Assembly (NCBI RefSeq): GCF_026870175.2
Contig: NZ_CP113977.2
Location: 3,286,001-3,350,000 of the forward strand
From: Flavobacterium aestivum
GTDB lineage: Bacteria; Bacteroidota; Bacteroidia; Flavobacteriales; Flavobacteriaceae
DNA length: 64,000 bases
Direction of reading: 5' to 3'
Under the pieces are notes generated by a model. The model was given only the letters and a program-made list of their open reading frames with translations, had not been told where the DNA came from and made no database searches. A program made the position numbers and the translations under genes. Positions 1-52,906 of the stretch are shown one piece after another (position 1 is the first letter of the stretch; every line of letters starts with the position of its first letter).

Positions 1-1652
1 TTTATCCATCTACTGAAACGTTGGCCAATCGCGGAATAACGAATCGTGTGGTAAACAAAATGATGCAACAATTGTTTCTGGAAACCCAAGCTCTGTTTAG
101 CGAAACCTTACCTTCTTATTTAACTAACGAACTCAAGCTGATACCCAAAAATGCAGCTTTATTCAATATTCATTTTCCAAAGAGTGCCGAAATTTTAGCG
201 AAAGCCCAATTCCGATTAAAATTTGAGGAGTTGTTCTTTATTCAACTGCAATTGATAACAAAGAATTTGATTCGGAAACATAAAATTAAGGGCTTTCCGT
301 TTACCAAAGTAGGCGAACTTTTTAATGAATTTTATCAGAATCATTTGCCATTTGAATTGACAAATGCTCAAAAAAAGGTTATTAAAGAGATTAGAACCGA
401 CATGGGCAGCAATGCTCAAATGAACCGATTACTACAGGGAGATGTAGGTTCAGGAAAAACCATTGTAGCTTTTATGAGTATGTTATTGGCACTGGATAAT
501 GGTTATCAGGCCTGCTTAATGGCTCCAACCGAAATTTTGGCCAATCAGCATTTTATCGGACTGTCTAAATTGGCCGCTTCCTTGAATATCAACATAAAAA
601 TCCTAACCGGCTCTACCAAAATTGCAGCACGAAGAATCATACATGAAGAGCTGGAAAACGGAAGTTTGCAGATACTTATTGGTACACATGCTCTATTAGA
701 AGACAAAGTAAAATTCCAAAATTTAGGCTTAGCTGTTATTGATGAGCAACACCGTTTTGGTGTTGAGCAACGCTCTAAATTATGGAAGAAGAATACTGTC
801 CCGCCACATATCTTGGTAATGACAGCTACTCCTATTCCCAGAACTTTAGCGATGAGCTTGTATGGAGATTTAGATATTTCGGTCATAGATGAATTGCCTC
901 CAGGCAGAAAACCCATTCAGACTGTACATCGTTTTGATTCTAATCGATTAAAAGTTTGGAAATTCATTCGGGATGAAATTGCTCTGGGACGTCAAATTTA
1001 CATTGTGTATCCTCTGATTCAAGAATCGGAAAAAATGGATTTTAAAGATTTAATGGACGGTTACGAGAGTATTTCTCGCGATTTTCCACTCCCAAAATAT
1101 TCAATCTCGATTCTTCACGGAAAAATGAAACCTGCCGAAAAAGATGAAGAAATGAAACGCTTCGCAGAAGGAAAAACCAATATTATGGTTGCCACAACCG
1201 TAATTGAAGTTGGTGTAAATGTTCCTAATGCCAGTGTGATGATAATAGAAAGTGCAGAGCGTTTTGGATTATCACAACTTCATCAATTACGAGGTCGCGT
1301 AGGCCGTGGTGCTGACCAAAGTTATTGTATCTTGATGACTTCCTTTAAATTATCAAGCGACAGCAAAACCCGTATGGAAACTATGGTGAGTACCAATGAT
1401 GGTTTCGAAATTGCTGAGGTAGATTTAAAACTTCGTGGCCCGGGAGATTTGATGGGTACCCAACAAAGTGGTGTTCTCAATCTTCAAATTGCCGATATTG
1501 TTCGCGATAGAGACGTTCTGATTTTAGCACGAAACTATGCCATACAAATTCTGAAGAATGATGCTCCTTTACAAAAACAGGAAAACGCCATTCTAAAAGC
1601 CGTTTTCATCGAATTGACGAAAAAGAAAAACATTTGGAATTATATTAGTTGA
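1..1652 (+). CDS. recG: ATP-dependent DNA helicase RecG (5' end outside window)
   Basis: Branch-migration helicase that remodels stalled replication forks and Holliday junctions. The reading frame is open from the first bases of the window, so the N-terminal wedge domain is missing and about 550 residues remain. Visible helicase motifs: Walker A QGDVGSGKT, the RecG-type DEQH box in VIDEQHRFG, TATPIPRT (motif III), and QLRGRVGRG (motif VI) near the C-terminus. The stop codon lies in a short inverted repeat (GAGTTGCTAAGC, with an 11/12 complement at 1760-1771) that may act as a loose terminator. Family assignment is certain; only the start is unknown. Confidence 0.97.
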   Translation, partial: YPSTETLANRGITNRVVNKMMQQLFLETQALFSETLPSYLTNELKLIPKNAALFNIHFPKSAEILAKAQFRLKFEELFFIQLQLITKNLIRKHKIKGFPFTKVGELFNEFYQNHLPFELTNAQKKVIKEIRTDMGSNAQMNRLLQGDVGSGKTIVAFMSMLLALDNGYQACLMAPTEILANQHFIGLSKLAASLNINIKILTGSTKIAARRIIHEELENGSLQILIGTHALLEDKVKFQNLGLAVIDEQHRFGVEQRSKLWKKNTVPPHILVMTATPIPRTLAMSLYGDLDISVIDELPPGRKPIQTVHRFDSNRLKVWKFIRDEIALGRQIYIVYPLIQESEKMDFKDLMDGYESISRDFPLPKYSISILHGKMKPAEKDEEMKRFAEGKTNIMVATTVIEVGVNVPNASVMIIESAERFGLSQLHQLRGRVGRGADQSYCILMTSFKLSSDSKTRMETMVSTNDGFEIAEVDLKLRGPGDLMGTQQSGVLNLQIADIVRDRDVLILARNYAIQILKNDAPLQKQENAILKAVFIELTKKKNIWNYIS

Positions 1653-19087: not shown

Positions 19088-19924
19088 TTATGTGGTAGTT
19101 GTATACCATTGTTTGTGTAGCATTATGTCCGTATAAGTGGCTACATTGTTGAGCTGGGCGTTTAGTTCAACCTTTGAAGCTCCTGCAAACGGATTACTTA
19201 GCGGGGTTTTGGTTTCAACCCATTCGCAAAGCTCAATAATAGACGATTTATTTGATGTAAAGTAAAAATAATTAGTGTTATCCAATACCTGTAAAACATC
19301 TAAATAATCACGCAATTTCCAGTAACTTTTATACGTTCCGGCTTCAGTCGATAAATACGGTGGGTCAGCCAAAAACACAACGTTTTCAGCATTCTTATAC
19401 TGGTCAAACAAAGTCTTATAATCTTTTTGGACAACTTCTAACCTTTCCAAATAACCGTCTGCGTTATACTCTGTTTGCCTGATGCAATTATACAAACTAG
19501 ACGTTTTTATCTGCTTTAGCGATGTGGCATACTTCATTGAAAACATAATTGAGCTTGACAAAGTGATATAATCAATATAACCGACCATTGCTTCAGCTTC
19601 AATTCGTGCGATAACTTTATCACGCGCATCACCAGTAATTTGTTTGTCCTTTGGCCAGTCTTTCAATATGATGCGCAAATCAGCAATTAAAACGTTTGTT
19701 TTGCTAATGTTTTCAAGACGTTCACGATAATTGTCGAAATCATTGTAAACAACTTTTGCATCGGGATATAACGCCTTAACCGTATGCGAAAGTAGTCCGC
19801 TACCACCAAATAAATCGACATAAATAGCGTTTTTTGGGTAATCTTTTAAAGCTGTTTTAAACTCGTTTAAAAATCTTCTTTTTTGCCCCATAAATGGCAG
19901 GGGTGCTGAGTTGTATTTTTTCAT
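19088..19924 (-). CDS. Phage N6-adenine DNA methyltransferase (D12 class, Dam-like)
   Basis: 278 residues. The SAM-binding motif I is in VDLFGGSGLLSHTVK (about residues 37-51) and the catalytic motif IV is DPPY in VVFLADPPYLST (about 184-195), the order expected for the alpha-class/D12 family of solitary adenine methylases. N-terminal PLPFMGQKRRFLNEF is the usual start of the family. Last gene at the phage right end, after a cytosine methylase and with no restriction endonuclease nearby, so protection of phage DNA against host restriction (the role of mom in Mu) is the likely job. The recognition sequence cannot be read from the protein. Confidence 0.92.
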   Translation of the reverse strand: MKKYNSAPLPFMGQKRRFLNEFKTALKDYPKNAIYVDLFGGSGLLSHTVKALYPDAKVVYNDFDNYRERLENISKTNVLIADLRIILKDWPKDKQITGDARDKVIARIEAEAMVGYIDYITLSSSIMFSMKYATSLKQIKTSSLYNCIRQTEYNADGYLERLEVVQKDYKTLFDQYKNAENVVFLADPPYLSTEAGTYKSYWKLRDYLDVLQVLDNTNYFYFTSNKSSIIELCEWVETKTPLSNPFAGASKVELNAQLNNVATYTDIMLHKQWYTTTT

Positions 19925-19991: not shown

Positions 19992-21080
19992 TCATGTGTT
20001 AAATATTACACTCCATTCATTGTAAATTCTGTTTGCAATATGTGCCATCATTAATGGAGGTACTGACATCCCTAATACATACTGAATCTTTGCGCATTTG
20101 TTGCTTCCAAAGTCATAATCAAGGGGGAAACTTTGTGCTAAAATCATTTCAACTGAGTTCATACGTCTTGGTTCGTCAAATAGTGTAAGCTTAGAGCCTT
20201 CACTACTAGCGATAGTAGGAATTGGTTTATGCCCATACACAAATGAGCTATTGAAATTTGAGCATCGGTTTTCTGTGCGCTCCAACACATAAGCGTAAGT
20301 TCTATCACCATAAATCCTACTATCCCATATCCTTTGGTCATGATCTGTCCAATTAGCATCATTTAAGCCTTTTGTGCGTATTTTATCGAACGGAATAGGT
20401 TCAAGTCCGTATTTCATATTTAAGGCTGGGAAATCGCCAAAAAGTAGCCCGAATGGTTTAGGTAATCGATCTGCTAAATCTTTCCTTATTGCAATAAAGA
20501 AAACACGCTCCCTTCTTTGTGGTACTTCCATTTGTGAACTGTCAAGCTCAAACTCCTGAACCAAGTACCCGGCTTTATCAAATGCTGTCAAAATTTTGCG
20601 TACATAATCCCTGGCATTACCTTTCAAAATTCCCGAAACATTTTCGGCCAATACTATTTTAGGCTGAAGCTTTTCGGCTAGTTCGATAAAATCAAAAAAC
20701 AGAGTATCTAAAACTTGTTCTGCCTGTCCTTCTTTGAATTTCTTTTCTTTACCCCAATCTTTTTCACGATTACCAGCCATTGAAAAAGAGCTACACGGTG
20801 GCGACCCGTCCAATATATCAAGCTCATAAAGTTCAGGTGGCAAGTCAGTTCGGTTTTTGAATGTTTGGATACCTTCGATAAAAGTAAACTTTGGGTTGTG
20901 ATTTCTTAGGTAGAGTTCCGCCATACGTGGGTCGATTTCATTGATACCGATAACATCGAAGCCTGCAAGCTTGTAACCCATTGTAGAACCACCTCCACAG
21001 GCAAAGCAACTAAATACTTTGCCCTTGTTTTTAGAAAATAAGGCGTCTGCCAATTTCCATCGGTAATTAAATGTTTCCAT
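19992..21080 (-). CDS. Phage C5-cytosine DNA methyltransferase (Dcm family)
   Basis: 362 residues from the chosen start METFNYRWKLADALF. A longer frame begins at 21158, but its extra 26 residues would be encoded by the hairpin/RNA element, so I reject it. Ordered motifs: I FSCFACGGGSTMGYKLAG, IV DGSPPCSSFSMAGNRE with the catalytic Cys, VI IVLAENVSGIL, VIII QRRERVFFIA, and near the C-terminus IPTIASSEGSKLT (IX) and a motif X-like end. Lies between the tail-fibre genes and the adenine methylase. Its 5' leader is antisense to the structured RNA at 21118-21228. Probably an anti-restriction modification enzyme. Confidence 0.93.
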   Translation of the reverse strand: METFNYRWKLADALFSKNKGKVFSCFACGGGSTMGYKLAGFDVIGINEIDPRMAELYLRNHNPKFTFIEGIQTFKNRTDLPPELYELDILDGSPPCSSFSMAGNREKDWGKEKKFKEGQAEQVLDTLFFDFIELAEKLQPKIVLAENVSGILKGNARDYVRKILTAFDKAGYLVQEFELDSSQMEVPQRRERVFFIAIRKDLADRLPKPFGLLFGDFPALNMKYGLEPIPFDKIRTKGLNDANWTDHDQRIWDSRIYGDRTYAYVLERTENRCSNFNSSFVYGHKPIPTIASSEGSKLTLFDEPRRMNSVEMILAQSFPLDYDFGSNKCAKIQYVLGMSVPPLMMAHIANRIYNEWSVIFNT

Positions 21081-21083
21081 TCG

Positions 21084-21114
21084 TTGTTTGATTGATGATT
21101 GATGATTATATTTG
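21084..21114 (+). promoter_or_regulatory. Plus-strand promoter driving the phage small RNA
   Basis: A -33 TTG (21084-21086, within TTGTTTG), a 20-nt spacer and a perfect -7 TATATTTG (21107-21114). The predicted start, 4-7 nt downstream, coincides with the first base of the outer stem of the RNA element. The promoter overlaps the leader of the oppositely oriented cytosine methyltransferase gene. Confidence 0.65.
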
Positions 21115-21117
21115 CAC

Positions 21118-21228
21118 CTCTCACATCTTAAAAAGTTATAAATGCAATAAAGCCACAACCAGAAGACTTATGTCCTCCGACTGTAGCTTTATTGCAACAA
21201 TTTTAATTAAGATGTGAGAGTTTTTTTT
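21118..21228 (+). ncRNA. Structured small RNA with own promoter and terminator
   Basis: A ~110-nt element folded end to end. A perfect 13-bp outer stem (CTCTCACATCTTA 21118-21130 with 21208-21220) is followed by T8 as terminator. After an internal loop that can itself partly pair (AAAA with TTTT, GTT with AAC) there is a perfect 10-bp inner stem (GCAATAAAGC 21144-21153 with 21186-21195) and a 32-nt apical region. Within that region GAAGAC and GTCCTC can form a further hairpin with a TTAT loop. There is no open reading frame of note. It stands alone on the plus strand between minus-strand genes, antisense to the leader of the cytosine methyltransferase. I do not recognise the family. Confidence 0.65.
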
Positions 21229-21308
21229 AAATGTTGGAGGACTATTTTTTACTTCCAATTGTCCTTCTGAGAAGCCAGTCTATTTAGAAATATCCAGTAA
21301 ACCTTACA

Positions 21309-22496
21309 TTACACGACTTGTTGTTTCTTATAACTAAATATTGCCGCTCCTGTATAGCTTCCGGTAGTAGTTCCTTGAAAATAAAAAGTAGCTTTTTCGT
21401 TATTAACAATTTTGACAGAGCCTACAAGCATGTTGTCCCCAAATAGAGTTATAGTTCCTACAAATGTATCAGAGAAACTACTATTGCTAAGTATAGGTAA
21501 AGTAAAATCTATATAGCCAAATCCAGCCGTTGTGATGTTTAAAGCTAGAGGTACAGTAACGGTTACAACATCTTTTACTTGAGTATAAGAACCTTGTTGA
21601 GTAGAAGATGAATCTTCTAATTGGTACGGGTTTGAAAAGGTAGGAACAAAGACATTAGAGCTAAAATCCAAGTCGCTTGTCAATGCTATAACCTTAACCC
21701 CAGTTACATCAGGGAAATTAAATGTAGCAGTACCGTTGGAAGCTTTAGCTAAATTTATCTTGTTTATCTTAGTTCCGTTGGTGTACTTCAATTCTCCTGA
21801 GTTACTTATATTAACACTACCAGTGCCATCTGAAGTCTGAAAACCTAAAGAGTTTAATGTAAAAAAATGATTACCAGAATTTAACCAAGAAATACCCTCA
21901 GACCATGTTAGTCTTAACTGCTCACTGGTACCAACTTTTTTTAATGTTATGCCGTGGCTAGACTCATCATTTACCCCTAAAACATTGTCTAAACCACTAG
22001 GAGGTGGCAAATCACTTGTGGTAGCTAACGTATGTGTTCCTACTTTAAAGGGAACTCTAATATCTGAAAAACCTACAGTACTAGGATTTAAGGTTAATCT
22101 ATTCTGACTACTTGTAGTATAGTCAGAAACTTCAAGATAGATATTACCATCATTTACTCTTATAGTAGAATGTAATTCTGATTCTGAATTATCATCAGAA
22201 GAGATTCTAACACCTTGATTTTCTATCGCCAAAACCCTCTCAAAATCTCCGTTTCTTACAGTAAAATTTGTAAAGGTAATACCTTTACCTACGCTCATAA
22301 TATCAGCGTAACTATCTCCTACCTCTGCATGAGTTCCTATATTTAGAACACCTTGAAAATCCTGAGTACCCCCAGGACTTGGAAAAGGAATTTGTTTTAC
22401 ATCACCATCTTCATTTATACACAATGCGTTGTGTGCTGGACTTCCTGACGGTACTTCCTTAAAATTTAATTCTGTTTTAAATGTTTGTTTAGCCAT
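21309..22496 (-). CDS. Phage tail fibre/receptor-binding-like protein
   Basis: 395 residues. The N-terminus FKTELNFKEVPSGSPAHNALCINEDGDVKQIPFPS resembles the opening of many Bacteroidota phage distal tail proteins. The remainder is rich in short beta-strands, Gly, Ser, Thr and Asn, with repeating phrases such as GLDNVLGVNDESSHGITLKK. The C-terminal third (about 290-395) looks like a compact beta-sandwich that could bind the host surface. Last of the tail genes, in the position of Mu fibre genes S/U, followed by a 190-nt region with the small RNA. Assignment rests on position and composition, not on a recognised domain. Confidence 0.65.
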   Translation of the reverse strand: MAKQTFKTELNFKEVPSGSPAHNALCINEDGDVKQIPFPSPGGTQDFQGVLNIGTHAEVGDSYADIMSVGKGITFTNFTVRNGDFERVLAIENQGVRISSDDNSESELHSTIRVNDGNIYLEVSDYTTSSQNRLTLNPSTVGFSDIRVPFKVGTHTLATTSDLPPPSGLDNVLGVNDESSHGITLKKVGTSEQLRLTWSEGISWLNSGNHFFTLNSLGFQTSDGTGSVNISNSGELKYTNGTKINKINLAKASNGTATFNFPDVTGVKVIALTSDLDFSSNVFVPTFSNPYQLEDSSSTQQGSYTQVKDVVTVTVPLALNITTAGFGYIDFTLPILSNSSFSDTFVGTITLFGDNMLVGSVKIVNNEKATFYFQGTTTGSYTGAAIFSYKKQQVV

Positions 22497-31721: not shown

Positions 31722-32897
31722 TTACTTTTTAAGGGTTAAACCAATTTTTACAATGAGTTCACGTAGAGTACCCACAGGGATAAGCTTTACAATTACTTCT
31801 AGTTTAGAGTCGCGTAAAACTTGCTGATTTGGGTCAATTTGAAGCGTGAATCCACTTAATTCACCATCGCGAAACATTCGGTCTAATGGTTCTGAAGCAA
31901 GTGCCTCCAATGCACTTACAGTTTCAAGATTTAAGAACCCTGTATCTGCATCAACATAAGCTGGACCCGAAAGTTTAGGAAGTAATTTTTTATTGATTTG
32001 GCGGATTGCTTTATCAATGGTTCTGTTATTCTCGATATACAGGTAATCACTTTCTAAATCAGCAGCCGTTGAGCTTGCATTGAAGAAGCTTCCAGTTGTT
32101 CCAATGTGTTTAATCCCGAAGATGTAACCTTTGTCCTGAATGCTTTTTAATTGCGCTGCGGTGTAATCACTAATTAAAGTACCATCACACAATCCTAAAA
32201 CATCTAATTCACGAGCCAATACGTTGCCACCTGTTAAGGCTTTTGGATAGGTTGTTGAAACTAAATCAAACTTTTCAACCCATTCAATACTTTCGTGTAC
32301 TTTAGACAAAGCCACAGCTCCTAAAGCAGCTCCTATATTTGACAATGATGGCTGTGTAGTTTTTAAATACATACCACGTCCGCCAGCATCTTGACCCAAA
32401 ACAAATGATACCCTTTCATTGTCGAAAGAATGTAGATCAGGCAAAGCAACCATGTCAGCAGTAACAACTTTCATCGAAAGCAATACACTTAACGGAGTAT
32501 TCAAATCACCTAATTCAGTTGCAATGGTATTAAGACGTGTCATTGCGGCTTCTAATCCACTAACAGACGTTTTGTAATCACAAATAGCAATTTGTTTAAT
32601 ATTACCTTCAGCAAAGTTTTGAAGTACTTTTATTTCTGAGTAATTTCCGTCTGAAGCAGCAACACTTTGAATGTATAATTTTGCTCCTGATGCAATTCTG
32701 AAAAATTCGGAAACATGATAATGTAACACCGGGTGACTGGTTGCTGTAATGCCGTTTGTTTCCAATTCATCTTCAGAAAGCAAAAGTTTTTTTGCGAATA
32801 CAGCATCCCCATAAACGATAAGCCCTGAAATATGGTCATCACCTGCAAGTTTGCGGGATAAACCTCCATTCTGTCTGATAAACTTAATACCGCCCAT
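31722..32897 (-). CDS. Contractile tail sheath protein (DUF2586-like)
   Basis: 391 residues. N-terminal GGIKFIRQNGGLSRKLAGDDHISGLIVYG, the central FVLGQDAGGRGMYLKTTQPSLSNIGAALGAVALSKVHESIEWVEKFDLV, the segment NNRTIDKAIRQINKKLLPKLSGPAYVDADTGFLN, and a C-terminal beta strand set. These fit the sheath family found in Mu-like phages of Bacteroidota. The polymer contracts to drive the tube through the envelope. Overlaps the upstream repeat-protein gene by 1 nt. Confidence 0.85.
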   Translation of the reverse strand: MGGIKFIRQNGGLSRKLAGDDHISGLIVYGDAVFAKKLLLSEDELETNGITATSHPVLHYHVSEFFRIASGAKLYIQSVAASDGNYSEIKVLQNFAEGNIKQIAICDYKTSVSGLEAAMTRLNTIATELGDLNTPLSVLLSMKVVTADMVALPDLHSFDNERVSFVLGQDAGGRGMYLKTTQPSLSNIGAALGAVALSKVHESIEWVEKFDLVSTTYPKALTGGNVLARELDVLGLCDGTLISDYTAAQLKSIQDKGYIFGIKHIGTTGSFFNASSTAADLESDYLYIENNRTIDKAIRQINKKLLPKLSGPAYVDADTGFLNLETVSALEALASEPLDRMFRDGELSGFTLQIDPNQQVLRDSKLEVIVKLIPVGTLRELIVKIGLTLKK

Positions 32898-33526
32898 TAT
32901 TTAATATCTTTTTTATTTTTTGGTTGTTTTTCTTCAGCCGGTACTTCCATAGCTGGCTTGTCAAAAAGTGTAGGTTCTTCCGTTACTTCAGTTGTAGGAG
33001 CTTCGGCAGTTGCAGGAGTTTCTTCCTTCACTTCAGTTGCAGGAGTTTTATCTGCTTCAGTAGTTTCTTCCTTCACTTCAGATGCAGGAGTTTTATCCGC
33101 TTCAGTAGTTTCTTCCTTCACTTCAGTTGCAGGAGTTTTATCTGCTTCAGTAGTTTCTTCCTTCACTTCAGTTGCAGGAGTTTTATCCGCTTCAGTAGTT
33201 TCTTCCTTCACTTCAGTTGCAGGAGTTTTATCCGCTTCAGTAGTTTCTTCCTTCACTTCAGTTGCAGGAGTTTTATCTGCTTCAGTAGTTTCTTCCTTCA
33301 CTTCAGTTGCAGGAGTTTTATCTGCTTCAGTAGTTTCTTCTTTCACTTCAGTTACAGGATCTTCGTAAACCAAAGGGCGAAGATGTTTAGTTACTTTATC
33401 GTTTTCCAACGTTCGTGCGTGGTTCTTTGCATCGCCTTCCAAATAGAATGGATTACCGTCTGAAGTTTCAAATACTTCGTCTAATTTGCTGTTTGAATCA
33501 AAGATTCTTTTGATTGCCTCTCTCAT
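32897..33526 (-). CDS. Phage protein with seven tandem 15-residue acidic repeats
   Basis: 209 residues. A folded N-terminus (MREAIKRIFDSNSKLDEVFE, then SDGNPFYLEGDAKNHARTL) resembles small head-tail or connector-region proteins of Bacteroidota phages. Then come seven nearly identical units of TEVKEETTEADKTPA, a partial eighth, and a lysine-rich end. The repeat tract is disordered, acidic and Pro/Thr-rich, like a flexible linker or stalk. Sits between the spanin and sheath genes; overlaps the sheath by 1 nt. The number of repeats is likely to vary among relatives by slippage. Function unknown. Confidence 0.75.
   Translation of the reverse strand: MREAIKRIFDSNSKLDEVFETSDGNPFYLEGDAKNHARTLENDKVTKHLRPLVYEDPVTEVKEETTEADKTPATEVKEETTEADKTPATEVKEETTEADKTPATEVKEETTEADKTPATEVKEETTEADKTPATEVKEETTEADKTPASEVKEETTEADKTPATEVKEETPATAEAPTTEVTEEPTLFDKPAMEVPAEEKQPKNKKDIK
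33020..33355 (-). repeat. 45-bp tandem repeat array (seven units) within a CDS
   Basis: Units of 45 bp, in frame, differing mainly at one T/C position (TTATCTGC or TTATCCGC on the plus strand) and a single A for T change in one unit. The near-identity at the DNA level indicates recent expansion by slippage or recombination. Confidence 0.93.
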
Positions 33527-39395: not shown

Positions 39396-40610
39396 ATGAG
39401 TAGAAATAGAAAAAAACAAACTGCCAATTTGGCAAAACAAAATAGTAATCCTGTCAGTAATGCAAATGCGCCCCGTTATTCAGGGTCAATTGCGCCAAAG
39501 TCGATTTCACGTACCCGTCAGGATATTGGGAGCTGGAACAAGGCACTTACATTGGCAAGGAAAGCAGATAAACCAAAAAGATGGCAATTGTACAACCTGT
39601 ACGATGAAATTATTTTGGATGCGCTTTTGAAGTCCCAAATTGAAAACCGTATGCTTAAATCATTGTCCCAGTCATTTACTTTAACAGATGAATCTGGGAA
39701 CATTGACCAGGAGCTAACAGCACTTTTGCAAAATCAAATTTGGGTGAACGAGCTGAATAAGCAAATTTTAAATACTCGTTACTACGGACATTCACTTGTT
39801 GAGTTCAACTACAACGAGAAAGGCGAAATACAAGTTACGCTTATACCACGACAAAACGTTGACCCTGTAGGCGGGTTTTTATACTTTGATTATACGGATG
39901 AAAAAGGCGTTAATTACCGTGAAATCCCTGAATACGGCACGTGGTTAATGGAGTTTGGCGATAAGAACGAATTGGGGCTTTTAAACAATGCTGTCCCGCA
40001 CGTATTATTCAAAAGGTTCGCCCAATCGTGTTGGAGTGAATTATGCGAAATATACGGTATTCCGCCCCGATATATGAAAACTAACACCAACGACCCCGGT
40101 ATGCTTAAACGTGCAGAACGTATGATGCGTGACATGGGTTCGGCGGCTTGGTTTATTATTGACGAAAGCGAACAATTTGAATTTGCTCAAACAACTGCAA
40201 CAAATGGCGATGTATTTAACAATCTAATCAGATTATGTAACAATGAAAATTCATTGCTTATATCCGGTGCAATTATCGGACAAGATACAAAGAACGGTTC
40301 TCGCTCTAAAGATGAAAGTTCGCAAGATATGTTACAAACGTTGGTAGATAGTGATTTATCTTTAATAGAACAAGTTTGGAATACCGTTATCATTCCTGGA
40401 CTTTTAAACATCGGGGTTATCAGCAAGCTACGAACTTACAGTTACCCTAAATCTGAAAACTTAGACCAACTTTGGACAAGAACCAAAGAAGCTGCAACAT
40501 TTTTAGAAGTTAATCCAGAGTGGGTAAAAAGCACTTTCGGAATTGATGTCTTGGGAGCAAAAAAAGAAGCTAATACAGCCCAAAAATTGCATTTAGATTT
40601 TTTCGACTAA
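39396..40610 (+). CDS. Portal protein (Mu gp29-like, DUF935)
   Basis: 404 residues. Typical DUF935 segments: RKADKPKRWQLYNLYDEIILDALLKSQIENR, TRYYGHSLVEFNYNEKGEIQVTLIPRQNVDP, FAQSCWSELCEIYGIPPRYMKTNTNDPGML and LISGAIIGQDTKNGSRSKDESSQDMLQTLVDSDLSLIEQVWN. Forms the dodecameric DNA gate and packaging motor base. Followed at once by a hairpin that covers the start region of the next gene. Confidence 0.9.
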   Translation: MSRNRKKQTANLAKQNSNPVSNANAPRYSGSIAPKSISRTRQDIGSWNKALTLARKADKPKRWQLYNLYDEIILDALLKSQIENRMLKSLSQSFTLTDESGNIDQELTALLQNQIWVNELNKQILNTRYYGHSLVEFNYNEKGEIQVTLIPRQNVDPVGGFLYFDYTDEKGVNYREIPEYGTWLMEFGDKNELGLLNNAVPHVLFKRFAQSCWSELCEIYGIPPRYMKTNTNDPGMLKRAERMMRDMGSAAWFIIDESEQFEFAQTTATNGDVFNNLIRLCNNENSLLISGAIIGQDTKNGSRSKDESSQDMLQTLVDSDLSLIEQVWNTVIIPGLLNIGVISKLRTYSYPKSENLDQLWTRTKEAATFLEVNPEWVKSTFGIDVLGAKKEANTAQKLHLDFFD

Positions 40611-40632
40611 GCCCCAAAGATTATTTTGGGGC
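40611..40632 (+). promoter_or_regulatory. RBS-occluding hairpin before the gp30-like gene
   Basis: Perfect 8-bp stem GCCCCAAA (40611-40618) with TTTGGGGC (40625-40632), beginning at the first base after the portal stop codon and ending 1 nt before the TTG start at 40634. The GGGG that could act as ribosome-binding sequence lies in the 3' arm. No T-run follows, so it is unlikely to be a terminator; translational control or coupling is more plausible. Confidence 0.65.
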
Positions 40633-40633
40633 A

Positions 40634-41479
40634 TTGCATCAAAAGTTATCATTGCAATATGAGCCGTGCGGGTGCAATCAGTGTAAAACACTCACTTTAT
40701 CCATTCAAAAGGACAATGATTTTAAAAGGGTTTTAAAAGTCGCTGAAAGAGCCTTTAAAAAGCTTCACAGTCGCGGAACCTATAAACCTGAAGATTTATC
40801 TGAAGTACAAGAATATAAACTTTTAGCAAAAGCAACCGCCAAAGTTTTAAGGAAGGGAATACCGCACGAAGTCCCGCAGGAAATGAAAGACTATTTAGAA
40901 AAAGATATTTTCATTTTTAGCGGTCTAAAAACACACGCACAATTAGCTGAAGCCCGAAGCTTATTAAAAGATGCTGAAGGGAATATTCGCAGTTATGAAG
41001 ACTTTGAACAAAAGGTCCTGAAGCTGAATGAAAGCTACAACCGTAATTATTTGGAAGCTGAACACAACTTTGCTATACAATCTGGGCAAAGCGCTGCGGA
41101 CTGGTTAAATTTCAGCGATGATACTTCCCGCTATTATTTACAGTACAGAACCGCAGGTGATGACAAGGTAAGGGATTCTCATAAAGCATTGCATAACATT
41201 ACGCTTCCAAAAGATGATCCGTTTTGGGATTACTATTATACACCAAATGGCTGGCGTTGTAGATGTCGAATAATTGAAGTTTTAGCTACTGACAATGACA
41301 AAAGCAATAGCAAAGAAGCAATGGAAAAAGGAGAAAAAGCCACCGCATTAGTTGATAAAAAAGGGAATAGCTCAAACCTATTCAAGTTTAATCCAGGAAA
41401 GGACAAAAAGCTAATGCCACCGAATAACACTTATACAAAAGTAGCAGGGTCAAAAAAAGCAATTAAAGCCTTTGAATAG
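40634..41479 (+). CDS. Phage head morphogenesis protein (Mu gp30/SPP1 gp7-like)
   Basis: 281 residues. The C-terminal minor-head domain is clear: YYLQYRTAGDDKVRDSHKALHNITLPKDDPFWDYYYTPNGWRCRCRI, the DxxvRxxH...P..GWRCRC signature of Phage_Mu_F. The N-terminus has a CxCNQC cluster (EPCGCNQCKTL). No ATG is available in frame near the beginning; TTG at 40634 is the first sensible start, directly behind a hairpin. Acts in head assembly, a few copies per virion. Ends 1 bp before the next start. Confidence 0.85.
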   Translation: MHQKLSLQYEPCGCNQCKTLTLSIQKDNDFKRVLKVAERAFKKLHSRGTYKPEDLSEVQEYKLLAKATAKVLRKGIPHEVPQEMKDYLEKDIFIFSGLKTHAQLAEARSLLKDAEGNIRSYEDFEQKVLKLNESYNRNYLEAEHNFAIQSGQSAADWLNFSDDTSRYYLQYRTAGDDKVRDSHKALHNITLPKDDPFWDYYYTPNGWRCRCRIIEVLATDNDKSNSKEAMEKGEKATALVDKKGNSSNLFKFNPGKDKKLMPPNNTYTKVAGSKKAIKAFE

Positions 41480-49954: not shown

Positions 49955-50857
49955 TTACTGCTGACTTATAATCAATAAACTTTCGGCTCTTCTTAAACCT
50001 CCGATTCTTTCAGTATCATCGCTTGTTAAGCATCTTTTTGTAATTGCAGGGATTAACGATTTATCTTCTACGTTCACATTTAATACATCGTTTATAAGCT
50101 GTTTAAAGAACTGAAGTTTTTGTTGTCTGTCCGTTGGTACTACATTTGAATATTTTCCACTAAAACGGCTGAAAATTTCTTCATATCCAACTTTTTTACT
50201 TGTGATACCTCTTCTTACTTTGGTTCTTAAACCATCTGCGCCTATTAAATACCACGCACAACAATTTTCGGTAGCGTTCCAAAGCTCTTTAAGTTCCAAA
50301 AAAGCTTCATAAACTAAATCACCGGCTTCGTCAATAATTACGATTGGTGGGTGTGGTAGTGATTTTAAGTAATACTTTACATTGGCAATAACATCGGCGT
50401 ATTTTCCTGTGCTGTCCAAGCCAATTGTTTTAGCAATTAACCTAATGAATAGCTGCTTTGTTTTTGCTTGGGAAGCATCTACATAAAAACAGTTTTTTAA
50501 AGTTCTTGACAAGTGTTTAGCGGCTGTAGTTTTGCCTATTTCGCATTCATCAACAAAGATTTTACTTTTTGAATTTGCCTGACAGAAAAGAATATCTTCT
50601 TCAATTATTTTGTAAACTTCTGTGCGGGCAATATTCCAAGTTCTTTCGTGCATGTTAATGTTTAACTCTCTACCGATTGTTAGCCATTGTGTGTCTTTTA
50701 AAAGACTGTCACGCTTTCCGCTTTTTAATTGGCTCCATACGGACCCGTTTATATTCCATTGTTTCGCAAACTGTGCATCAGTGCTGTCATAATTTTGGCG
50801 TAAGTTCAGTAATTCGCTAACTACTTTGTCTTTAAATTCAGGGGTAATTTGTATCAT
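49955..50857 (-). CDS. MuB-like AAA+ ATPase, transposition target-selection protein
   Basis: 300 residues. N-terminal HTH (SELLNLRQNYDSTDAQFAKQWNINGSVWSQLKSGKRDSL, as in MuB), Walker A FVDECEIGKTTAA (residues 101-113), Walker B IVIIDEAGDL (172-181), and a C-terminal lid part. MuB coats target DNA in an ATP-dependent way, brings it to the transpososome and gives target immunity. Follows the transposase gene by 15 bp. Confidence 0.9.
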   Translation of the reverse strand: MIQITPEFKDKVVSELLNLRQNYDSTDAQFAKQWNINGSVWSQLKSGKRDSLLKDTQWLTIGRELNINMHERTWNIARTEVYKIIEEDILFCQANSKSKIFVDECEIGKTTAAKHLSRTLKNCFYVDASQAKTKQLFIRLIAKTIGLDSTGKYADVIANVKYYLKSLPHPPIVIIDEAGDLVYEAFLELKELWNATENCCAWYLIGADGLRTKVRRGITSKKVGYEEIFSRFSGKYSNVVPTDRQQKLQFFKQLINDVLNVNVEDKSLIPAITKRCLTSDDTERIGGLRRAESLLIISQQ

Positions 50858-50872
50858 AACTTTATTTTTTGA

Positions 50873-52906
50873 TTAAAATCTGTCGATTAATGCTTTTCTC
50901 TGGGTGATTACAGGAATGTTGTCCGATTCGTCTTCAATTGTTCCTACAGATTCCGCAGGTTCGTTGTTCATTCTGAAGACCGATGTATTTAAACCAGGTA
51001 TTTGAAACTTGTTATTTAAAGTGAATTGTCTGTTATCAATAACTGTTACTTTGTCGATTGCTCTAAGTTGATGACGTTGGAAAGCTTCGATTGTGGCAAC
51101 GTAGGCGCTCATTATTTCGCGGGCGTTTATATCGTCTTCCGTTTGTTCGATTTTAGCACGGTTGTAAGTTGGTTTTGGACGTGCTTCGCAAATATATTTA
51201 CCGTTTCGGTATATAAGAGCTTTGAAGACTTTCCCTTGGTTATCGTCTAACCAATAGATGTCAATGTTTTTCCCTTCAACTTCGTTCATCAATCTGATCA
51301 GATTATCGCCTAAAAAGATTTTTCCGTTATCGCCTAAAAGGTATTGCCCGTATTGTAGGTCAATTATTCCTGCATTACACGAAGTTTCAGTTCTATAACC
51401 TAAGTGCAGCATGAAAGCCCTGTAATTGGTTGCTTTCACGTTTTGGTTTTGATTCTCTAAAAAGTATTCCCATCGAGTTTTTGTTTTGTCTTTGCTGTGT
51501 GGCATATTGTTCCAGGTCACAATATCATTTAAACAGCCGTTAACAATTTGCTCATATGGCAATATGATTTTTTCCTGACTGCTTTTTTGATTACTTTCAC
51601 TTATTGCGAATGGACGGGCTAGCCAACCTTCACGTTTTTTCTCCAGTTGATATCGCAATGGTCTGTAATATGCTTCTATTCGCTTACCCCTTGCGTTATT
51701 AGCTTCGATTCTGACATTTTGGAACATTGACCCTTCACGCAAAAAAGAATCCTTAAAAGAGCTGTTTAAAGAGCTTTCGCATTCTAACCCATCAGGAAGG
51801 TTTAAACCCCAATCGTGGTAATTCCTAACTAACTGGCGGTAAAACTCTAAAATAATACCGTCTTTGCTTTTTCCATAAACCCAGCATGTAAAGGCTTCGC
51901 TGGCTAAATCAATCGCATTGTAAAACCACATTCTTTTTCCTTTTAGATATTCAAAAGGTGGTTGACGGTCATCAATTGAAAGTAAGGAACCGGCAAATTT
52001 TGGTTGTTCCAATGAATGTGCAGGTTTAAATTTCTGCATAAGCTTTTGACGGTCACCGCTTCGCTTCGCATGGGTTCCAATGCTGTTTTTCCATTGCGAT
52101 AAATAATTAATTACAGTTCCTTTACTTAGTTTTTTAAAGTCTTTCGGGTTGTAAACCTCACCGGTTTTATTATTAATTACTTCAACGTAACCCGCCAAAA
52201 ATCCTTCGTATTGTTCTGCCACTTCGGTTGCAGTTGGTTTGTGGCTTTGAGTCGCAAACAAATCATTTAAAAACTTCACCATTTCATCAGTTACGATACG
52301 ACGATTTTGTTTGGAAGCACCTCTAACGTCTTTAACAAGGCTTATGTATCCAATCTCGTTGAATTTTTTAAGAGTTTCATTAAATCTGCGTGGGTGAGCA
52401 GGAAGGTTGTGTGTAGCTTTGTACTTCTTTGTTAAAACTTCGTTAAAGCTTTGAGCATCATAGCAAAGAGTTTGGTTAATATCCGTTTTGCGACCACCCA
52501 TTTTTGTGCGTTCTAACTCTCGAGCTGCTTTCAGTTGCAAAACTGCTTTTACAACACTTGCATTAACGATATACTTTTCTTGTACATCGAGGTGCAAATA
52601 ACTTCCATCCAGTCTTTCAAAGTTTGAGTAAAAATCTACGGCTCCGCCGTCAACTTTGTAATAAAGTTCTAAAGGATGGTCGCATTTTGTTGGGTCGCCA
52701 AGAGTATTTTGTGTTTCTTTTGGAAGACTCTCAAAAAATATTAACATCTTTCTACAATTACCTCCTGACTGGGCTTTTTTAATACCGTAGGGTTTATCTT
52801 TATAACGCGCTATATCCTTTTGTAAAGCGGCTAATGATGGGTAGAAATCCGGTACTAATTCTTCCCATTCTACAACTACCATGTTATTAATCCAAATTTG
52901 TGGCAT
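50873..52906 (-). CDS. MuA-like transposase
   Basis: 677 residues, near the MuA length. Catalytic core: D312/D313 in LLSIDDRQPPFEYLKGKRMWFYNAIDLAS, an acidic position E375/E377 in GLECESSLNSSF, and E411 in KRIEAYYRPL. The usual middle Asp is therefore a Glu. The N-terminal part (about 1-290) should hold the end-binding domains; the C-terminal tail (about 570-677) would contact MuB. It carries out excision-free strand transfer for integration and replication. It follows the ner-like gene by 21 bp. Confidence 0.92.
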   Translation of the reverse strand: MPQIWINNMVVVEWEELVPDFYPSLAALQKDIARYKDKPYGIKKAQSGGNCRKMLIFFESLPKETQNTLGDPTKCDHPLELYYKVDGGAVDFYSNFERLDGSYLHLDVQEKYIVNASVVKAVLQLKAARELERTKMGGRKTDINQTLCYDAQSFNEVLTKKYKATHNLPAHPRRFNETLKKFNEIGYISLVKDVRGASKQNRRIVTDEMVKFLNDLFATQSHKPTATEVAEQYEGFLAGYVEVINNKTGEVYNPKDFKKLSKGTVINYLSQWKNSIGTHAKRSGDRQKLMQKFKPAHSLEQPKFAGSLLSIDDRQPPFEYLKGKRMWFYNAIDLASEAFTCWVYGKSKDGIILEFYRQLVRNYHDWGLNLPDGLECESSLNSSFKDSFLREGSMFQNVRIEANNARGKRIEAYYRPLRYQLEKKREGWLARPFAISESNQKSSQEKIILPYEQIVNGCLNDIVTWNNMPHSKDKTKTRWEYFLENQNQNVKATNYRAFMLHLGYRTETSCNAGIIDLQYGQYLLGDNGKIFLGDNLIRLMNEVEGKNIDIYWLDDNQGKVFKALIYRNGKYICEARPKPTYNRAKIEQTEDDINAREIMSAYVATIEAFQRHQLRAIDKVTVIDNRQFTLNNKFQIPGLNTSVFRMNNEPAESVGTIEDESDNIPVITQRKALIDRF

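Follow-up and report, generated by a model that had tools for sequence, protein, structure and literature searches.

The window analysed here is a 64,000-nt stretch of Flavobacterium aestivum DNA (GCF_026870175.2, contig NZ_CP113977.2, positions 3,286,001–3,350,000 of the forward strand), and it contains a prophage that encodes a MuA-like transposase (50873–52906) and a MuB-like ATPase (49955–50857), both recognised by eye, as well as a tape-measure protein. A C5-cytosine DNA methylase gene (19992–21080, minus strand; PF00145, E 2.2e-48, scanned with one extra 5' codon) and a D12-class adenine DNA methylase gene (19088–19924, minus strand; PF02086, E 3.4e-9), the second gene of the modification unit, lie next to the last late gene (21309–22496, minus strand, stop at 21309), for which no Pfam or PHROGs match was found. 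Between the cytosine methylase and the end of the late gene, a small RNA is predicted on the plus strand. It is convergent with the late genes and divergent from the methylase, whose start codon (21080) lies some 37 nt away from the predicted start of the RNA. The preliminary description was right to place it on the strand opposite to its neighbours. That description had also compared the site to the com/mom slot at the right end of phage Mu. The likeness holds, but the constant partner of the element is a modification gene and not the phage right end: four loci (L016, L038, L053, and L060) carry the element in the middle of a contig, surrounded by gene clusters of other kinds. Elsewhere in the window, the only Rfam match at the gathering threshold is a Flavo-1 RNA (RF01705; 56263–56346, minus strand, 54.3 bits) before a host gene, and a short late-region ORF (32897–33526, minus strand) contains many repeats of the unit ATEVKEETTEADKTP.

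The predicted promoter (21084–21114, plus strand) comprises a TTG and the -7 box TATATTTG (21107–21114), with two candidate TTGs at 21084–21086 and 21088–21090 (20 and 16 nt before the box, respectively). The transcript is predicted to start at or just before 21118, where helix P1 begins (5' strand CTCTCACATCTTAA, 21118–21131; 3' strand TTAAGATGTGAGAG, 21207–21220; 14 bp). P1 encloses helix P2 (5' strand TGCAATAAAGC, 21143–21153; 3' strand GCTTTATTGCA, 21186–21196; 11 bp); both had been described as perfect stems, which they are, although each is one pair longer than the 13 and 10 bp first given. The apical region between the P2 strands, also noticed earlier, holds the 5' side of a weak stem (GAAGAC, 21162–21167, with an A.C mismatch on the plus strand) and a loop strand, GUCCUCCGAC / GTCCTCCGAC (21172–21181), that is complementary, with one G.U pair, to a 3' tail strand, GUUGGAGGAC / GTTGGAGGAC (21233–21242). 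This pairing, with which the weak apical stem competes, had been missed. The T8 run is where it was reported (21221–21228), but the conserved tail and a T6 run (21245–21250) lie beyond it, and the conserved element extends to about 21250 rather than 21228. The earlier picture of a single interrupted hairpin of about 110 nt is therefore replaced by a predicted RNA of about 130 nt with a pseudoknot and a tail. A third segment (21252–21274, no strand assigned) contains GTCCTTC (21261–21267), a partial complement of the tail, between CTTC and GAAG; it is weak in the window copy (four of five pairs plus a G.U). The minimum free energy of 21118–21229 is -41.7 kcal/mol, against -13.59 (s.d. 2.78) in 200 shuffled sequences (z -10.11), none of which was as low. 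The sequence features of the predicted structured plus-strand RNA, and the promoter box with its upstream TTG, are present as first reported.

A repeat, ATCATCAATCATCAATC, overlaps the promoter (21085–21106) and recurs in L007, L009, and L013 (about 1501–1527 in each). It stands directly before start codons, both that of the modification gene here and, in other Flavobacterium genomes, those of genes unrelated to one another, and is perhaps a translation leader.

Relatives of the element were collected in several ways. When 100 related genomes were searched with BLAST, the window's own genome yielded two more copies and five further genomes (G025, G030, G044, G045, and G057) matched the element, the remaining hits being the promoter repeat or chance. 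The two additional copies (G000 C1:511165–511310, L014; and 1094678–1094823, L012) are identical and each precedes a D12 methylase, which suggests a duplicated second prophage. Alignment of the elements with their flanks revealed a constant apical core and a complementary GGAGGAC beyond the coordinates first noted, and a pattern built from core and tail matched 48 viral contigs and 52 genome contigs. From 107 pattern sites, 19 with a GC content of at least 0.47 were dropped as chance matches, together with L041 and L049 (coding, by eye), L074 (5' half replaced), and L014 (duplicate). The genome records kept belonged to Flavobacteriia or, once, to a 'Bacteroidetes bacterium'. A first covariance model, R1, was discarded after RNAalifold retained the pseudoknot helix alone, and models R2 and R3 took its place. 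The filtered sites and the members found with R2 make up 83 distinct elements. A second, very different set was obtained by searching for modification genes first and for the RNA second; it has the gut hankyphage among its members and is called Bacteroidales-type for that reason. A stricter selection, of 149 non-identical elements, replaces an earlier one of 174 that included contig repeats (171 with at least eight loop-tail pairs). R2 and R3 themselves favour similar loop and tail letters.

The element occurs in at least 12 of 397 genomes at the family level (R2) and at least 2 of 395 at the phylum level (R3), the window's own genome included in each; these are lower bounds, because only the best 7–8 first-look candidates per genome were scored and stricter filters were used. 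BLAST against a phage collection gave short matches alone. One of them was to the apical core (21 nt) in Elizabethkingia phage TCUEAP3, in which R2 confirmed an element between genes for a 'tail protein' and a 'DNA modification protein Mom'. The hankyphage (Bacteroides phage p00, BK010646) carries an element on the complement of 40536–40696, with TATCTTTGCA just ahead of the predicted RNA start; its R3 score of 149 bits is not independent, as R3 was trained on close relatives. Flavobacterium columnare ATCC 23463 (L088) also carries the element, and we infer that this locus is prophage fF4, an inducible transposable prophage with a modification gene near its end, for which the portion of the published description drawn on here gives no RNA (PMC7761591). 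The size of the family, which spans phages of Flavobacteriia and Bacteroides, had been missed in the preliminary description.

Comparison of these relatives supports a common fold. The sequences of P1 and P2 vary while their pairing is kept, and the compensatory changes that the preliminary description had named as a test are abundant in P1, P2, and the pseudoknot alike. In alignment A3 (25 Flavobacteriia-type sequences, with a structure specified by hand), pairing holds in 94.4% of cells and both sides have changed in 11 of 26 pairs, values that none of 500 shuffles reached, while the number of pair types was reached by one of the 500; sliding the partners lowered pairing to 34–49%. The corresponding values in alignment A7 (22 Bacteroidales-type sequences) are 90.0% of cells and 19 of 23 pairs (0/500 shuffles), with pair types reached by 2/500 shuffles and pairing of 40–49% after sliding. 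The loop-tail helix has at least nine contiguous pairs in 147 of the 149 non-identical elements (median 11), compared to 8% of shuffled tails, and is built from 82 sequence combinations (e.g., GUCCUCCAAC/GUUGGAGGAC, GCCCCCGGUC/GGCCGGGGGC, and GUCCUCGGAACAU/AUGUUCCGGGGGC); L258, in which it is broken, is a clear exception. Because the invariant core of the first 71 sequences is partly owed to the search pattern, a separate count was made of the members reached by way of modification genes: 87 of these 89 non-identical elements have at least nine pairs, in 53 different helices. Since P1 closes ahead of the tail, the pairing makes a pseudoknot or, conceivably, a contact between molecules. Taken together, the comparison supports a non-coding RNA of about 130 nt with P1, a hinge, P2, a loop, a 3' tail pseudoknotted to the loop, and a U-run at its end.

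Two U-runs could mark that end. A T-run of at least four lies directly before the tail, in the place of T8, in 66 of the 83 distinct elements, and within 12 nt after the tail, in the place of T6, in 79 of 83, which makes a 3' end near 21250 more likely than one at 21228. After the second U-run, the third segment is complementary to the tail with at least five Watson-Crick pairs in 118 of 148 elements (22.7 expected) and lies in a hairpin loop in 74 of those 118 (33.4 expected). Its strand test (plus 69, minus 35, equal 69) is confounded by composition.

The strand of the RNA was judged from the promoter and from wobble pairs. A box of the type TANNTTTG, which is a host-type -7 box, lies 43–55 nt ahead of the core on the plus strand in 80 of 83 elements, with a TTG 15–24 nt further upstream in 54 of 83 (27.8 expected in shuffles). 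On the minus strand, the same type of box was found in 2 of 83 elements, fewer than the 8.3 expected, and in none of them with a TTG; the modification genes seem to lack a promoter of the common type in the stretch scanned. Any helix has a complement on the other strand, where G.U pairs become A.C mismatches, and this difference tells the strands apart. Each of the two pairs beyond the core is made in all of the first 71 sequences (71/71 and 71/71), with 13 G.U pairs on the plus strand and no A.C. The longer pseudoknot was obtained with G.U pairs, hence on the plus strand, in 125 of 149 elements (84%) and with A.C in three (2%), 21 being equal. Shuffled tails already favour G.U (62%, against 16% for A.C and 22% equal), so that composition accounts for part of this signal; when the Watson-Crick core is used to set the register, G.U outnumbers A.C by 144 to 20 in 119 distinct contexts. 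P1 and P2 are neutral (12 vs. 12 distinct contexts; raw counts, 32 A.C and 12 G.U), and an apparent minus-strand preference of these helices (97 A.C vs. 20 G.U) was rejected because the count took in loop positions. The apical stem shows the reverse bias, with 84 A.C against 18 G.U in 70 distinct apical sequences. It is firmer on the minus strand in 144 of 149 elements (median -7.4 kcal/mol, vs. -3.3 on the plus strand), and the pseudoknot helix reaches -18.3 kcal/mol. Taken with the plus-strand promoter and U-run, the simplest reading of the wobbles and the apical stem is that selection on the plus-strand RNA favours the pseudoknot and disfavours the competing stem. The strand assignment also rests on the promoter and the U-run and stands despite the weaker wobble argument, and the firmer apical stem leaves a possible role of its own for the minus-strand leader.

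In 80 of 82 loci a DNA-modification gene lies divergent from the RNA, without an exception among the testable ones, the other two being L098, which ends at a contig end, and L074, which lacks the 5' half of the element. In the window and in 80 of 82 loci, a modification gene likewise closes the late region, its position varying. The nearest divergent match, always on the opposite strand, was a D12 methylase in 29, a thymidylate-synthase-like gene in 27, an ABC-type gene in 14, and a Dcm methylase in seven of the 77 loci (out of 82) that gave one. Beyond these, L046 has a Mom gene (PF25680, E 6.8e-62) to which an ORF in L064/L031 is closely similar by eye, and L126 has an N6/N4 DNA methylase (PF01555, E 7.8e-24). 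The kinds of modification gene (TS-like, D12, Dcm, N6/N4, Mom, and ABC-type) come from at least six unrelated families; the survey of divergent genes leaves out L121 and L129, which were found through R2 only. Other neighbours in most loci are late-region tail-gene clusters, and the linkage to modification genes is kept in the mid-contig loci as well.

Converse searches that started from the modification genes found the RNA at 76 of 80 TS-like loci (the best 80 of 194), at 62 of 71 D12 loci, and at just 10 of 28 ABC-type loci, in every case on the opposite strand and upstream of the gene. The three lists overlap, with some contigs present in two of them, and related phages do not count as independent events; more weight is carried by the number of unrelated gene families. 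The distance between the RNA and the searched gene ranges from 6 to 1319 nt (at most 120 nt in 57, 121–400 nt in 36, and over 400 nt in 55 of 148 loci), and above 400 nt there is room for another gene between them, as is the case in the hankyphage. The order in the hankyphage, counted from the RNA, is a small ORF, thymidylate synthase, and DNA methylase; the small ORF (BK010646 40709–40951) resembles a Mor/C-type activator by eye.

No Rfam 15 family reaches its gathering score over the element in the window and 14 loci, in keeping with the preliminary description, to which no such RNA was known from Mu-like phages of Bacteroidota. Relaxed matches (miRNA precursors and AniS) were rejected as long-hairpin noise far below the gathering scores, a relaxed scan of the hankyphage element likewise gave only matches far below them, and neither 6S-Flavo nor another 6S RNA is among the 26 Rfam matches up to E 10 over 21060–21260. 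A literature search over titles and the openings of abstracts gave no description of such an RNA. The family is undescribed so far as Rfam 15 and these literature searches reach, and we would class it as a putative antisense leader RNA. Plasmid copy-number RNAs are cis-encoded antisense RNAs with structured leaders, and the element resembles them in being short and structured, with its own promoter, and fully complementary to the leader of a putative target; it differs in being phage-borne, in its loop-to-tail pseudoknot within the antisense RNA, and in its linkage to modification genes. Position and orientation fit a cis-antisense RNA, which lies opposite to and overlaps its target transcript, and no other promoter was recognised for the presumed target. 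Like intrinsic terminators, the element ends in a GC-rich helix followed by a U-run, but the helix beside the final U-run is formed with a loop about 60 nt upstream, and conservation extends beyond hairpin and U-run to its own promoter, P2, the loop, and the pseudoknot, with covariation in P1 and P2.

Two published comparisons remain. In Mu, com/mom is controlled by the Com protein and a translation-inhibition structure (PMC6483171). As in Mu, a late DNA-modification gene ends the late region of a transposable phage, control at the RNA level is proposed, and some loci carry a Mom-family gene (PF25680); unlike in Mu, the proposed control lies in an RNA gene of its own, encoded on the opposite strand, the modification genes are of many other types, and no Com-like zinc finger was seen by eye in about 18–19 leader intervals. 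Palindromic candidate structured RNAs of 80–132 bp (3,161 in the full list) have been reported from Bacteroidetes of human microbiomes (PMC8040213). The element shares the palindromic form, the size range, and the phylum with them, and proximity to phage genes with HMP_4078; the four named candidates adjoin D5/integrase, TPR, RuvA, and TonB genes, which sets the element apart from those four, although it could be among the other entries of the list.

What the RNA does is proposed from its arrangement. The reading that we prefer, and to which we give about an even chance, is that it acts as an antisense RNA and silences the modification operon for as long as late transcription is not strong enough to read through. 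Host polymerase would make the RNA from its host-type promoter in the lysogen and in early infection. The modification mRNA probably arises by late read-through and runs antisense across the RNA gene, given that no promoter of the common type was found in the stretch scanned. The RNA would meet this read-through head-on, complementary to the mRNA over its whole length, and would in our view gate the modification genes: pairing and cleavage of the duplex, together with convergent transcription, would keep them silent, and the block would yield to strong late transcription. Modification would then come late and leave host DNA alone. The RNA would take the part played for Mu mom by regulated transcription and the Com protein, and the pseudoknot may hold the RNA terminated and stable and govern when it can pair. 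This gate is favoured by the covariation of P1, P2, and the pseudoknot, by the near-constant loop-tail helix and plus-strand box (147/149 and 80/83), and by the one-sided linkage to modification genes, also in mid-contig loci, the hankyphage, and TCUEAP3. Comparison supports the family, its fold, strand, and orientation, and the near-constant linkage. Against the gate stand the low frequency of the RNA at ABC-type loci (10/28), the 55 of 148 loci more than 400 nt from the searched gene, the partly compositional strand signal to which P1 and P2 add nothing, the apical stem that is firmer on the minus strand, the broken helix of L258, and a conserved pseudoknot that exceeds the needs of a plain antisense RNA.

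Mainly on account of that pseudoknot we keep in view a trans-acting RNA in an anti-restriction island, a counter-defence or host take-over factor that would bind a host protein or RNA. Its compact conserved fold, its own promoter, and the anti-restriction genes around it agree with such a role, which we nevertheless consider unlikely, as it would not need the fixed side and orientation beside the modification gene (80/82 loci) and has no Rfam relative hinting at a target. The convergence with the late genes and the U-runs after the pseudoknot tail (79/83) and after P1 (66/83) could also mean that only convergent transcription and termination matter, the RNA being inert and the pseudoknot an unusual terminator; a terminator would need less than two stems and a pseudoknot that persist while the sequence changes completely, and such an insulator is distinctly improbable.

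The functional RNA might instead be the leader of the modification mRNA on the minus strand, a switch among pairings that exclude one another (the tail complement with the third segment, or with the loop complement, or the apical hairpin). The firmer apical stem on that strand (144/149) and the frequency of the third segment and of its hairpin-loop position (118/148 and 74/118, vs. 22.7 and 33.4 expected) speak for it, whereas the promoter and the U-run are plus-strand features and the pseudoknot wobbles favour the plus strand, and we regard a leader switch as very doubtful. A DNA-level inverted repeat for recombination or exchange of modification cassettes, with the RNA incidental, would suit the varying cassettes on one side of a constant element and the break inside the element in L074; strand-specific wobbles, a promoter, and a pseudoknot pairing that is meaningless in duplex DNA leave it highly improbable. 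The phi29 pRNA is a packaging or structural RNA, and the loop and tail of the element could pair between molecules too; a role of this kind is hardly to be expected of an RNA linked to modification genes in phages with differing gene orders.

The antisense gate would gain in scope if the element were a Bacteroidota-wide class of phage RNA with a loop-to-3'-end pseudoknot terminator, serving as a general timing device of DNA modification in which the RNAs of the two strands hold opposite folds, a tentative extension that we think rather doubtful as a whole. One RNA module before any modification enzyme would protect host DNA from modification until the late genes are switched on; the pseudoknot would form on one strand and a closed hairpin on the other, and the tail complement in the late mRNA would act as the off-switch. 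DNA modification is a main route by which phages pass restriction, and to our knowledge the means by which they spare the host from their own modification enzymes before lysis are known for few systems. If true, Bacteroidota phages would have a general solution in one RNA module that accompanies many modification genes of unrelated families. Published reads allow a look at expression, as the hankyphage carries the element and its stranded RNA-seq, with and without induction, has been reported (B. thetaiotaomicron jmh43, 0–22 h, repressor silenced or not; PMC12135933).

The element may also serve as a marker for unknown modification operons, e.g., the ABC-type set. GNAT and formyltransferase genes come after the ABC-type gene in most loci that have it, and the operon (a 42-aa ORF without a Pfam match, the ABC-type ATPase, GNAT, and formyltransferase) is divergent from the RNA in L022:1–2000, L058, L063, L114, and others. 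PHROG 11143 spans the ATPase and GNAT as one family of unknown function. We infer that this set modifies DNA; it is a candidate new modification system. Two further observations concern single loci. In L074 (Flavobacterium sp. TAB 87, about 1100–1235, minus strand), the 5' half of the element is other DNA, and the loop, the 3' strands, and the tail are kept. An RT-3 RNA (RF03068, 101 bits) occupies L265:1–163 on a viral contig that also bears the element.
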